From Deltaproteobacteria bacterium (lineage in GTDB: Bacteria > Desulfobacterota > Desulfarculia > JACQYL01): a stretch of DNA of 34,936 bases. Below, piece by piece: positions 3,770 to 10,855 of the stretch (positions are counted from its first letter, which is position 1; each line of letters opens with the position of its first letter). Position numbers and translations under genes: made by a program. The notes beneath the pieces are model-generated. The model was not told the origin of the DNA and searched no databases. It saw only the letters and a list, made by a program, of their open reading frames with translations. The DNA is taken from NCBI GenBank assembly GCA_016208165.1, contig JACQYL010000023.1, positions 5,969-40,904 of the forward strand, given 5' to 3'.

Positions 3770-5146
3770 TCATTTTTCCGAATGGCCGGTTGTTTCCTCG
3801 AGCCGATCGGGTAATTCTATGCCCTTTCGTCCGGCCACCTCCCGCACGGTTTCCCCCGTTCTGAAAGCCTCTTTGGCCAGTTCCGAAGCCTGATCGTAAC
3901 CGATTTCAGGGACAAGGTATGTAGCCATGGCAAGGCTTTTTTCCACAGTGGAAGTGCATTTGTCTCGATTCGCCGATATGCCGTCCACGCATTTCTCGGC
4001 CAATACGGTGGAGGCGTTCGACAACAGGTCTACGGATTGCAAAAGGTTGTATCCAATGAGCGGCATCATCACGTTCAACTCGAAGTTGCCCGCCTGCCCT
4101 CCCAAGGTAATGGCAACATCATTGCCGATAACCTGAGCCGCCGCCTGGAGTACCGCTTCCGGTATCACCGGATTGACTTTTCCGGGCATGATGGAAGAAC
4201 CGGGTTGAAGCGAGGGTATGGTGATTTCCGCGAAACCGGTTCTTGGGCCGCAAGAAAGCCATCTGAGATCATTTGCGATTTTGGTAAGGCTCACGGCCAC
4301 CGTCTTAAGCGCGCCGCTGGTTTCCACCGACGCGTCCCGAGCGCCTTGAGCTTCAAAATGATTCCCGGCTTCTACGAACGGGTACCCCGTTTCCGCGGCA
4401 ATAGCGGAGATAACGTTGGAGGCGAATCGAGGATGTGCGTTGACGCCTGTGCCCACCGCCGTACCTCCCAAAGGCAACTCGGCAAGACGTTCCTCCACCG
4501 CCTGGACGCGTTTCATACCGAGTTCCACCTGTCGGGCGTACCCACCGAATTCCTGCCCCAAGGTCAGCGGCACCGCATCCTGAAGGTGTGTGCGTCCGAT
4601 TTTGACGATGTCCGCAAACGTCTCGGATTTATGACGGAGAGTCTGACGCAATCGATCGAGCCCCGGCAGGAGTCGCTTCCGGATTCCTTCAAACGCCGCA
4701 ATTTGAATGGCGCTGGGAACGGCGTCATTGCTGGATTGGCAGAGGTTCACGTGGTCATTCGGGTGAACCGGGGCCTTTCCTCCCACCTTTCCCGTCAGGA
4801 GTTCGTTGGCTCTTCCGGCGATGACTTCGTTGACGTTCATGTTCGACGAGGTGCCCGACCCGGTCTGAAACACATCCAACGGGAACTGATGGTCCCATTG
4901 TCCGGACATTACTTCTCGAGCCGCCCGGATGATGGCCTCCGCCAGCCTCTCATCCAAAAGCTGCAACTCTCGATTTACCGAAGCTGCCTGCGTTTTGATG
5001 AGAGCCAGGGCGTGAATGATCGAGATAGGCATCCGAATGCCGCTTAAGGGAAAGTTCTCGACGGCGCGTTGCGTACCGGCGCCGTAATAGGCGTCCGCCG
5101 GCACGAAAACAGTCCCCATGGCGTCCGCTTCTTCTCGCGTCTTCAT
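3770..5146 (-). CDS. fumC: Class II fumarate hydratase
   Basis: Fumarase interconverts fumarate and malate in the TCA cycle without a metal cofactor. The 458-residue length is normal for the class II family. Visible signatures are [13 protein letters not shown] near the N-terminus, [10 protein letters not shown] in the middle, and the family signature [11 protein letters not shown] carrying the catalytic Ser loop. The start is the ATG at 5146, one base after the TGA of the iron-sulfur subunit gene; an in-frame ATG 30 bases upstream would lie inside that gene and is not preferred. It is the last gene of the aconitase to fumarase operon. Aspartase is a related alternative, but the TCA neighbours favour fumarase. 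No lesion is seen. Confidence 0.93.
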
Positions 5147-5147
5147 G

Positions 5148-5852
5148 TCATTTGCCTTTTCGTTTCTCGATTTCACGCTTTATGGTATTGATGCTCTTGG
5201 TCACAGGGATTTTTTTCGGACAGACACGTGTGCACTCGAAATGATTGACACACCCCCAAACGCCGTCGGGATTGTCAATTTGCTTCAACCTCTCTTCAAT
5301 CTTTTCGTCCCTCGAGTCGAAAATATATCTGAAAGCCCATACAAAGGGAGCCGGGCCGAGGTAGTTCCCGTTCTCAAAAGTGACCGGACAAGCCGCAACG
5401 CAGGAAGCACAAAGTATGCAACGGATGACTTCGTCCAGTTTCTTTATGTCTTCCGGACGCTGTTTTCGTTCATTCTCCGGCGGCGGCGTCTCGTTTATCA
5501 GGTATGGACGCATGCGTTCGACTCTTTCAAAGAACGGGTTCAAGTCCACAATCAGATCCTTGAGTATTCTGAAAGAAGGAAGTGGCTCCAATAGAATTTC
5601 TTCACCGCTGCAGTCTCTTATCAGCGTCTGGCATGCCAGAGCACAGCGTCCGTTGATCTTCATGGCGTCGGACCCGCAGATTCCGTGAGCGCACGACATC
5701 CGATAGCTCAAAGTACCGTCCTGCTCCCACCTGATCCGATTCAGACAATCCAGAATTCGCTCCTCCGGCTTGGTCGGCACGGTATAGGTTTTGTAGTGGG
5801 GTTTGGAATCGACGTCGGGATCGAATCGAAGGATTTTGAACCGCATTTCCAT
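5148..5852 (-). CDS. sdhB: Succinate dehydrogenase/fumarate reductase iron-sulfur subunit
   Basis: This 234-residue protein carries electrons between the flavoprotein and a quinone or other partner. The N-terminal half has the plant-ferredoxin-type 2Fe-2S site ([11 protein letters not shown], then a later Cys in RCALAC). The C-terminal half has the 4Fe-4S motif [12 protein letters not shown] and the second cluster motif ending in [10 protein letters not shown]. The length is normal. The ATG follows the flavoprotein stop by one base, so translation is coupled. No membrane-anchor gene (sdhC/D or frdC/D) is next to it in this window. Direction in the cell, succinate oxidation or fumarate reduction, cannot be decided from sequence. 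Confidence 0.93.
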
Positions 5853-7699: not shown

Positions 7700-8596
7700 C
7701 TAACCCCTTCCCGCCAGCGGCTCGTAGGAACATCCCACAAGCCCGCAGTAATTACCTACGTATTCCGCTTTCGGTCGATACCTCGGGTCCATCGTTTTGT
7801 ACACGGCATGTCCCATGCCCATGATGCGCTGTCCCGAATCCATTTGCCGCCGTACCCATTGGGGGAGGTCTTTTTCCGACTCGAGCTCCAACAGCATCTT
7901 CATAACTCGAGCGTTTGCACCGCCGTGGAGGCTGCCCGAAAGCGCGCCGACCCCCGCCGCCACCCCCGCGTACATATGCGCCCGAGTGGAAACGACTTCC
8001 CGGCAGGCAAACGTAGAGGCGTTGAACGTATGGTCCGCGTGTAAGATCAAACAGACGTCCAGATCGCGGGCAACGTCCTCATCCGGTCTTCTTCCATGCA
8101 AGAGCCAGAAAAAATTAGCGGCGTGCGACAGTTTTTCATCCGATTTCAACGGTTCCAGACCTTGGCGGATTCTATGCCATGCGGCCATAGCAACGGGCAG
8201 CCGCGCTATGAGACGTTTGGCGATGCGCTCGTTGGCTTCACGGGATTCGCCGGAGACATCCGGATCGGACATGGCAAAGAGAGGCACGGTGGCCTGCAGC
8301 ACGTCCATGGGATCGGCGTCTTTAGGACACCTCTTGTAGCTCTCGTACACATAATCCGGCAGTTCGCGCGCTGCGATTATTTCCTGTTCGAATTCCCGGA
8401 GCGCGCTTCTCGAGGGCAGTCGACCGTTCAGTAATAGATAGGCCGTCTCGAGGTAGGTCGAGTTTGCGGCCAGTTCCTCGATGCGATACCCTCTATAAAT
8501 GAGGATTCCCTTTTCTCCGTCGATAAAGCTGATCTTCGTGTCCGCTACTGTGATACCGCGTAGCCCCACATTCTTTGTTCGAACCATCTCTGCCAT
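7700..8596 (-). CDS. gltA: Citrate (or 2-methylcitrate) synthase with internal deletion
   Basis: The enzyme condenses acetyl-CoA with oxaloacetate. The first 272 residues are normal: [11 protein letters not shown] near 186, SLHGGAN with His224, and [11 protein letters not shown] with His263. The next residues are YRPKAEYVG, a motif that normally lies just before the C-terminus. About 85 to 90 residues are missing between them, including the family's catalytic Asp (in the PNVDFYSA-type segment) and much of the small domain. The reading frame is kept and the C-terminal tail runs to a normal stop, so this is an in-frame internal loss, not a simple truncation; the family is usually 370 to 390 residues. 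The product should be inactive. The start has a GGGGG site, 18 bases after the aconitase stop. Confidence 0.88.
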
Positions 8597-8614: not shown

Positions 8615-10561
8615 CTATGCAGACGCATCCTCCAGTTTCTCTTTCACGTAATTCAATGCGCCGCCTGCGGCCAGAAGCTGTCTCTGGCGGGAAGACACAT
8701 CGAGCAACGCCGGAATTTCTGCTCCATCCACCACTACCGGTATTTCGTGATCGCCGTTCAGCACGTGTCTTCTCACCTCTGGGAAAATCACCTTGCTCCC
8801 CTTTTGAAAGCGGTCATAATCCCTGGGATTCTTGAATGTGAGCGGCAGGATTCCAAAATTACACAAATTCGCTTTGTGGATGCGCGCAAAGCTCTTCGCG
8901 ATTTTCGCGCAAACGCCGAGATACCGTGGCGCAAGGGCGGCATGCTCCCGGCTCGACCCCTGTCCATAGTTTTCACCTCCGACAACGACCGCCCGGCCCA
9001 TTTCCTTACACGTTTTGTGAAAATCAGGGTCCAGCTGCGAATACACGAACTCGCTGATAGCCTCGATGTTGGATCGAAGCGGCAGGACTTCGCTGCCCGC
9101 CGGCATAATGTGATCGGTAGTAATGTTGTCCCCGACCTTGATGGCCACGCGCGCCTCAATGGTCTCCGGCATGGATTCCATCCGGGGCAAAGATCGGATA
9201 TTCGGACCCCGGAGGATTCCCTCCTTTGAAGTTTGTTCGGAAGGAAACACGATCGAGGATTCGTCGACATGGTATTTTTCCGGGTCCTGGATACGTGGAT
9301 ACGCCATATCCTTGGCCAGATCCCGAGGATCGGTGATCACTCCTTTCAGAGCGGCGGCTGCCGCCGTCTCGGGAGAACACAGGTAAACCTTGTCATCCTT
9401 GGTTCCCGAACGCCCGGGGAAATTTCGAGGAAAAGTCCTCAAGCTGACTTGACCTGTTCCGGGCGCCTGCCCCATGCCGATGCATCCCAAACATCCCGAC
9501 TCATGGATGCGGGCTCCGGCCGACAACAAGCTCAAGGCGCCTCCCACCATGGTCACGTTTTCGATCACCTGTCTGCTGCCGGGGTTGACGTGAAACGATA
9601 CTTCCGGATGAACGTGTCGGCCTTCCAGCATGCGCGCAGCCACCATAAGGTCCCGGAATGAAGAATTCACGCTGCTGCCTATGATGGACTGGTGAACCTT
9701 GATACCGGCCACTTCCCTCACCGGCGCCACGTTTCCGGGCGATGAAGGGCAGGCTATGAGCGGTTCGAGGGTCGAAAGATCGATCTCGTCGGTTTCATTG
9801 TAATCCGCGTCCGCGTCCGGAGCGAGAGGCTTCCAGGCGCGTCCCCGTCCCTGTGCCTCGAGGTATTTTCGAGTATTCCCGTCCGAAGGGAAAACGGAAG
9901 AGGTGGCTCCGAGTTCCGTACCCATGTTGCCAATGGTCTCGCGGTCCGTGGCGGACAGAGTCATGAGTCCCGGTCCATAATACTCGACCACCTTGCCGAC
10001 GCATCCTTTCACGCCATAACGACGCAACATCTCCAAAATAACGTCTTTGGCGCTGACCCAGTCCGGGAGGCTTCCCGTAAGCTTGACTCCGAAAACTTCC
10101 GGACACGGCAAATAATATGGACGTCCGGCCATGGCCATGGCCACGTCGAGTCCTCCAGCTCCGATGCCCAGCATGGACACTCCCGCCGCTCCCGGAGAAT
10201 GACTGTCGGCGCCTAAAAGGGTTTTCCCGGGAACGCCGAAACGCTCCATGTGAACCTGGTGGGAAACGCCGTTTCCCGCCGGGCTGTAATGAATCCCATA
10301 ACGGGCGGATGCACTCTGAAGATAGGCATGGTCGTCCGCGTTTTTGAAATCGGTCTGGATAATGTTATGGTCAACATATTGCACGGCCAGTTCCGCCCGA
10401 ACGCGATCGATACCCATGGCTTCGAACTCGAGCATGGCCATGGTCCCCGTTGCGTCCTGCAACAGTGTGTGATCGATCCGTATGGCGATCTCTTCGCCGG
10501 GAATCAACTCTCCTTTCACGAGGTGATCCGCCAGAATCTTATACGTCAGACTTTTGCCCAC
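8615..10561 (-). CDS. acn: Aconitate hydratase, Aquifex/putative type
   Basis: A 648-residue aconitase that would isomerise citrate and isocitrate via cis-aconitate. The N-terminal domains are followed by DHTLLQDATG, GADSHSPGAAG, the cluster region ESGCLGCIGMGQAPGTG with two Cys ligands, and the swivel domain with NITTDHIMPAG and GENYGQGSSREHAAL. The length fits the short single-chain family. In place of the usual GSCTN segment with the first Fe-S ligand, the protein reads IGSSVNSSFRDL, so that Cys is Ser. A Cys in the preceding LIACPSSPGN stretch is a possible substitute. The start is GTG at 10561, preceded by AGGAG; an upstream in-frame ATG lacks family sequence. It is the first gene of the TCA operon. 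Confidence 0.88.
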   Translation of the reverse strand: MGKSLTYKILADHLVKGELIPGEEIAIRIDHTLLQDATGTMAMLEFEAMGIDRVRAELAVQYVDHNIIQTDFKNADDHAYLQSASARYGIHYSPAGNGVSHQVHMERFGVPGKTLLGADSHSPGAAGVSMLGIGAGGLDVAMAMAGRPYYLPCPEVFGVKLTGSLPDWVSAKDVILEMLRRYGVKGCVGKVVEYYGPGLMTLSATDRETIGNMGTELGATSSVFPSDGNTRKYLEAQGRGRAWKPLAPDADADYNETDEIDLSTLEPLIACPSSPGNVAPVREVAGIKVHQSIIGSSVNSSFRDLMVAARMLEGRHVHPEVSFHVNPGSRQVIENVTMVGGALSLLSAGARIHESGCLGCIGMGQAPGTGQVSLRTFPRNFPGRSGTKDDKVYLCSPETAAAAALKGVITDPRDLAKDMAYPRIQDPEKYHVDESSIVFPSEQTSKEGILRGPNIRSLPRMESMPETIEARVAIKVGDNITTDHIMPAGSEVLPLRSNIEAISEFVYSQLDPDFHKTCKEMGRAVVVGGENYGQGSSREHAALAPRYLGVCAKIAKSFARIHKANLCNFGILPLTFKNPRDYDRFQKGSKVIFPEVRRHVLNGDHEIPVVVDGAEIPALLDVSSRQRQLLAAGGALNYVKEKLEDASA

Positions 10562-10855
10562 TATTCTCTCCTCTCGGGAATCGAGCCGTCCAATCGGCCT
10601 TTGATCTTTTACAAGACGCATGCACGGAGCGGATAACGCCGGCGAGAACATCGGGCAAGGGAGCGACGCCCCGGTTTCCGTGCATTTCTTCGAAGACATG
10701 CAACATGAGGGTATTACTTTCTGAGACGATCAAATCACATATTTGGAGTGAACGCGAATGCTCATCTTTCTACCATAAGGAGGCGAAAACTCCCGGTCAA
10801 CCCCGGCGGAATTCGTTTTGCGCGATTTACGAAAGATGGCCCTTCGTCTGATTCC

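Follow-up and report, generated by a model that had tools for sequence, protein, structure and literature searches.

The citrate synthase gene (gltA) of a TCA-cycle operon in the analysed stretch of DNA (34,936 nucleotides, hereafter the window, extending to the end of contig C23) encodes a protein that lacks one internal segment with its reading frame kept, and the adjoining sdhA is interrupted by a stop codon. We consider it probable that this gltA is a redundant citrate synthase copy, recently inactivated, in an operon that is starting to decay. The gene and the point of loss are located as follows:

7700 to 8596, minus strand: truncated short-type Si-citrate synthase, made up of residues 1-272 and the 26 C-terminal residues of a ~393-residue enzyme
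7780 to 7781, minus strand: deletion junction between DPR and YRP, 95 codons missing relative to 64 of 77 relatives, with 0-2 nt of microhomology

The 298-residue frame of this short-type enzyme is intact from ATG to stop, without an internal stop codon. Alignment to the full-length gltA genes of relatives, as the initial annotation had proposed, placed the junction between plus-strand bases 7780 and 7781, where codon 272 (R of DPR) meets codon 273 (Y of YRP). Here an 11-residue motif abuts YRPKAEYVG with nothing between, and the 12 residues ahead of the join are followed at once by the 26 that close the protein, which bears out the direct, frame-preserving joining of the two motifs first noticed in the letters. 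The Pfam PF00285 match covers positions 1-272 and stops at profile position 272 of 357, short of the full-length coverage expected of an active Si-citrate synthase, and the TIGR01800 score of 299.2 bits falls below the cut-off of 421.3.

The extent of the loss was measured against relatives. A scan of genome contigs gave 387 relatives, and the best 80 of these went into the comparison; relatives from the same class added three genes of the same type and six type I genes. The final alignment comprised 81 same-type relatives, duplicates, type I genes, L085, which has an in-frame TGA, and L056, which contains a run of N, being left out. Seventy-seven of the 81 are at least 385 aa long; of the other four, L032, L054 and L091 run off the end of their contigs and L043 carries an insertion. 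The spacing count thus uses 77 relatives, and the breakpoint and invariant-site counts use 78 where L043 passes the length limit. The distance between DPR and YRP is 95 residues in 64 of the 77 full-length relatives, 94 in 11 and 96 in 2. A search of the phylum returned matches in 204 of 395 genomes (own genome included), and the 29 further same-type loci compared from it (L153-L181) are all full length, at 392-402 aa, with normal spacing. Given the spacing in these 77 relatives and 29 loci, the loss, as read from the assembled gene, amounts to 95 residues (285 nt), keeps the frame and lies well outside what chance would give; the original estimate of about 90 residues lost between motifs normally 85-95 apart agrees well with the counted 94-96. 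A naturally short form was found in none of the relatives' frames compared (the best 80 of 387 with the class additions, and the 29 phylum loci). Among the phylum matches listed, only the window frame, G255 (272 aa) and G220 (335 aa) are shorter than 383 aa, the last two being partial matches. Residues 1-272 of the window protein share up to 73% identity with full-length relatives. Within its own class, a match of any kind exists in 8 of 62 further genomes; a gene of the same type occurs in only three, each with 5-7% estimated contamination.

Irregular citrate synthase genes were also encountered among the relatives. Two of the best 80 of 387 are broken, and L056 contains the run of N mentioned above. 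L085, from a Desulfocapsa bin, has its single in-frame TGA at citrate synthase codon 128 (match at 729-1904). L043, from a Desulfobulbaceae bin, carries an insertion of ~300 nt (2101-2405) at the codons before RP, with TTTAC on both sides; this insertion adjoins the point where the window deletion ends, gave no Rfam structured RNA at E up to 1, and was not found in the other sequences retrieved for comparison. An insertion at the same point in L056 was considered and rejected, the irregularity there resembling a gap in the scaffold bordered by repeated sequence. In L032, L054 and L091 (3 of the same 80) the contigs stop only a few codons apart, at the conserved NVDFYSA segment, possibly because the strains share a stretch at which assemblies break.

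The missing 95 residues contain the almost invariant N-V-D motif and the SRxxGW arginine, with D319 and R344 as the equivalents in the full-length relative L020. The conserved small-domain Asp of NVD is absent from the 298-residue protein together with the whole segment; H224 (HGGAN) and H263 (GHAVY), both invariant in the alignment, and the Arg of DPR are retained. We take H224, H263, the Asp of NVD and the named arginines to be active-site or catalytic residues of the family, and the lost segment had been said from the outset to hold the catalytic Asp; the Asp of NVD is indeed gone. For E. coli GltA, PMC7083601 describes the second His as important. An AlphaFold2 model of the 298-residue protein reached a pLDDT of 69.9 and a pTM of 0.70, with residues 189-206, 220-229 and 258-282 below 50; full-length L020, modelled with the same 21 sequences, reached 83.4 and 0.87, and each 10-residue block of its region 181-270 scores at least 70. 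The deleted stretch corresponds in the L020 model to four predicted helices (273-287, 291-308, 318-328 and 333-356), and the solved structures nearest to the model of the short protein are ordinary citrate synthases. Without the NVD Asp, the SRxxGW Arg and these four predicted helices, the 298-residue protein should not make citrate, and the initial annotation's expectation of a dead catalyst stands as a prediction from the residues lost. That another gene supplies the missing segment in trans and restores activity seems extremely improbable: citryl-CoA lyase-type genes on contigs C57 and C14 do carry the corresponding C-terminal family region, but both score above the cut-off of the citryl-CoA lyase model, a whole-genome PF00285 search found no free-standing segment, and the missing piece itself gave one chance-level match (E 0.89) in the stretches of the same genome compared by sequence.

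The deletion is accompanied by a second lesion in the same operon, the remaining members of which are:

8615 to 10699, minus strand: aconitase, intact, the only non-LeuC PF00330 member of the genome
5854 to 7575, minus strand: sdhA, succinate dehydrogenase flavoprotein, a 573-codon full-length frame with one TGA, 767 bits to TIGR01812
6289 to 6291, minus strand: in-frame TGA stop at sdhA codon 429, a position variable in relatives
5148 to 5852, minus strand: sdhB iron-sulfur subunit, intact
3770 to 5176, minus strand: fumC-like gene of the fumarase/aspartase superfamily, intact frame, divergent within the operon set

The TGA (6291-6289) sits in a linker that carries many different residues among relatives, and sdhA is interrupted in none of 19 full-length relatives. 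The window gene is the only match above the TIGR01812 (sdhA/frdA) cut-off in the whole genome, where the search likewise reports '1 TGA' inside it; two distant flavoproteins (on C53 and C57) score far below that cut-off, so that sdhA has no clear replacement. As a control for stop codons, we scored PF00005 matches of the same genome, and 0 of 88 are interrupted, indicating that stop codons do not arise throughout this assembly as noise. A reading of TGA as a sense codon was rejected on this control and on the variable position of the codon in sdhA relatives. The initial annotation did not mention this stop, which turns a curious short enzyme into what reads as a two-lesion operon. The acn, sdhB and fumC genes are free of stops and, save for a two-column gap near the fumC C-terminus, of internal losses. 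The true start of aconitase is probably near 10564, since the family match begins at residue 48. The gene order acn-gltA-sdhA-sdhB-fumC is conserved, for example in L029 and L039. The fumC-like gene is the most divergent of the set, with 19 of 198 invariant sites changed, as against at most 13 in any of nine relatives; its identity to each of the nine is 60-63%, and its score falls between those of the fumarase and aspartase models. No RNA family reached its gathering score in the window.

Both the gltA and the sdhA lesion could reflect a minority variant or a consensus error of the assembly, which would then hold a deletion and a point change from a few cells, or from a chimaeric read path, while the genes of the population are intact. 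The genome (5.69 Mb in 142 contigs, 95.5% complete, 4.4% contaminated) does look like a metagenome bin, and the defects in the citrate synthases of other bins (L085 and L043 broken, the run of N in L056) point the same way, but the sequence at the ends of the deletion and the behaviour of the rest of the genome make such an origin unlikely. At the exact breakpoints, 55 of 78 relatives have 0 nt in common, 22 have 1 nt and one has 2 nt, and the longest string common to the 80-nt windows at both ends is 5-10 nt. No repeat at the deletion ends that could explain slippage or assembler collapse was therefore found in these 78 relatives, which stand in for the ancestral sequence. This makes a long repeat unlikely as the cause, whether through slippage in the cell or collapse by the assembler, and there is no k-mer-sized repeat on which a false join could have been made; the collapse of ~270 bases that had been named as grounds for abandoning the initial interpretation is accordingly improbable. 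The absence of stops from the PF00005 matches also argues against an artefact, as does composition: the two pieces of C23 have GC contents of 0.534 and 0.559, with tetranucleotide correlations that lie within the spread shown by the genome's 18 other pieces. C23 as a contaminant contig is likewise unsupported by composition.

What remains of gltA is well kept. The window gene departs from its relatives at 2 of 69-70 invariant sites (L107F and L163F), a number reached by 1 of 77-78 relatives at the strict threshold and by 25 at the 95% threshold. By this comparison the window gene has only a slight excess of changes at invariant sites, and the substitutions do not show relaxed selection on gltA. 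The conservation of the remainder makes the loss look recent; it fits a recent event, and would neither prove nor exclude continued use of the protein. The preserved frame and the retention of most conserved sites in the remainder would also be expected if the short protein had been retained as a non-catalytic remnant with a regulatory or structural role, for which a precedent exists in Caulobacter CitA: in PMC7083601, the catalytic activity of this citrate synthase is described as dispensable for its cell-cycle role. The two cases are alike in that a citrate synthase without catalysis (here by prediction) stands beside a paralogue. The precedent, however, rests on engineered point mutants of a full-length protein, whereas about a quarter of the window protein is missing (95 of ~393 residues) and no role is indicated. 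In addition, none of the relatives compared has the short form, the fold is predicted to be disturbed well past the junction, and the adjoining sdhA is broken too. Retention for such a role is thus very unlikely, and the new role that the initial annotation had allowed for the short protein received no positive sign. Very unlikely as well are two bolder proposals: that the short protein is stably kept as a non-catalytic remnant while acetyl-CoA turnover has moved to CODH/ACS and the TCA operon is vestigial save for aconitase, or that insertion and loss of DNA in this gene favour the codons just ahead of YRP (compare L043).

The rest of the genome offers a reason why the loss could be tolerated. 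A type I citrate synthase gene lies at the end of contig C136 (L130 18340-19026), open to the edge and cut by the contig end; the 157 residues visible from its N-terminus share 65-75% identity with their type I counterparts in six genomes of the class. The C-terminal part of this gene was not found in the assembly by the whole-genome PF00285 search. The initial annotation had predicted another citrate synthase, for example of the Re-type, and half of this holds: the N-terminal part of an Si-type I enzyme is present, and no Re-citrate synthase candidate was found among the five PF00682 (HMGL-family) genes of the genome, all of which are otherwise accounted for (LeuA, CimA, two HMG-CoA-lyase-like genes, scoring below that model's cut-off, and one of pyruvate carboxylase B-type). 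CODH/ACS alpha/beta is encoded on C140, and another gene resembles isocitrate dehydrogenase but scores below the equivalog cut-offs; the second PF00330 gene of the genome is LeuC. A cluster on C57 (L129 9712-16785) combines a citryl-CoA lyase-type gene with succinyl-CoA synthetase-like subunits and a distant flavoprotein resembling fumarate reductase.

Inactivation of a redundant gltA beside a nonsense sdhA would account for the two lesions, for an aconitase left intact and for the well-conserved remainder. A single repeat-free deletion would have taken out 285 nt of gltA, the frame being kept by chance, and the downstream sdhA would have been hit by an in-frame TGA. The type I citrate synthase typical of the class would still be present and CODH/ACS would handle acetyl-CoA turnover, so that the loss of gltA could be tolerated, while the operon's intact aconitase would still be needed by the cell. 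A deletion of random length is expected to preserve the frame about 1 time in 3, and frame retention to this extent counts against pure decay. Compared with its orthologues, gltA carries the inactivating lesion expected of a pseudogene, with a second lesion in sdhA, and the gene that would make it redundant is present, though visible to residue 157 only. We infer that both lesions are fixed in the organism, as we do the order of events and redundancy as their reason.

The window protein shares with the short (type II, CitZ-like) Si-citrate synthases of TIGR01800/PF00285 the operon order and a 13-residue C-terminal motif, and differs from them in lacking 95 residues, including the NVD Asp and the SRxxGW Arg. 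Its locus resembles bacterial pseudogenes of redundant genes, with a deletion, a nonsense change in a neighbour, the rest conserved and a paralogue elsewhere; unlike in the usual case, the frame happens to be kept, and an annotation pipeline would call a normal short protein. The use of the TCA cycle together with the Wood-Ljungdahl pathway in a related kind of bacterium, as treated in PMC12137691, is background here and not evidence. The observation is real, and its cause looks like ordinary gene decay. Its value is mainly as a caution, in that an open reading frame with an in-frame deletion may be annotated as citrate synthase; with the stop in sdhA also overlooked, a metabolic reconstruction would assign to the operon a functional oxidative TCA cycle, which it may lack. 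If the lesions are fixed, the window would capture an early stage in the loss of a TCA operon in an organism with CODH/ACS.
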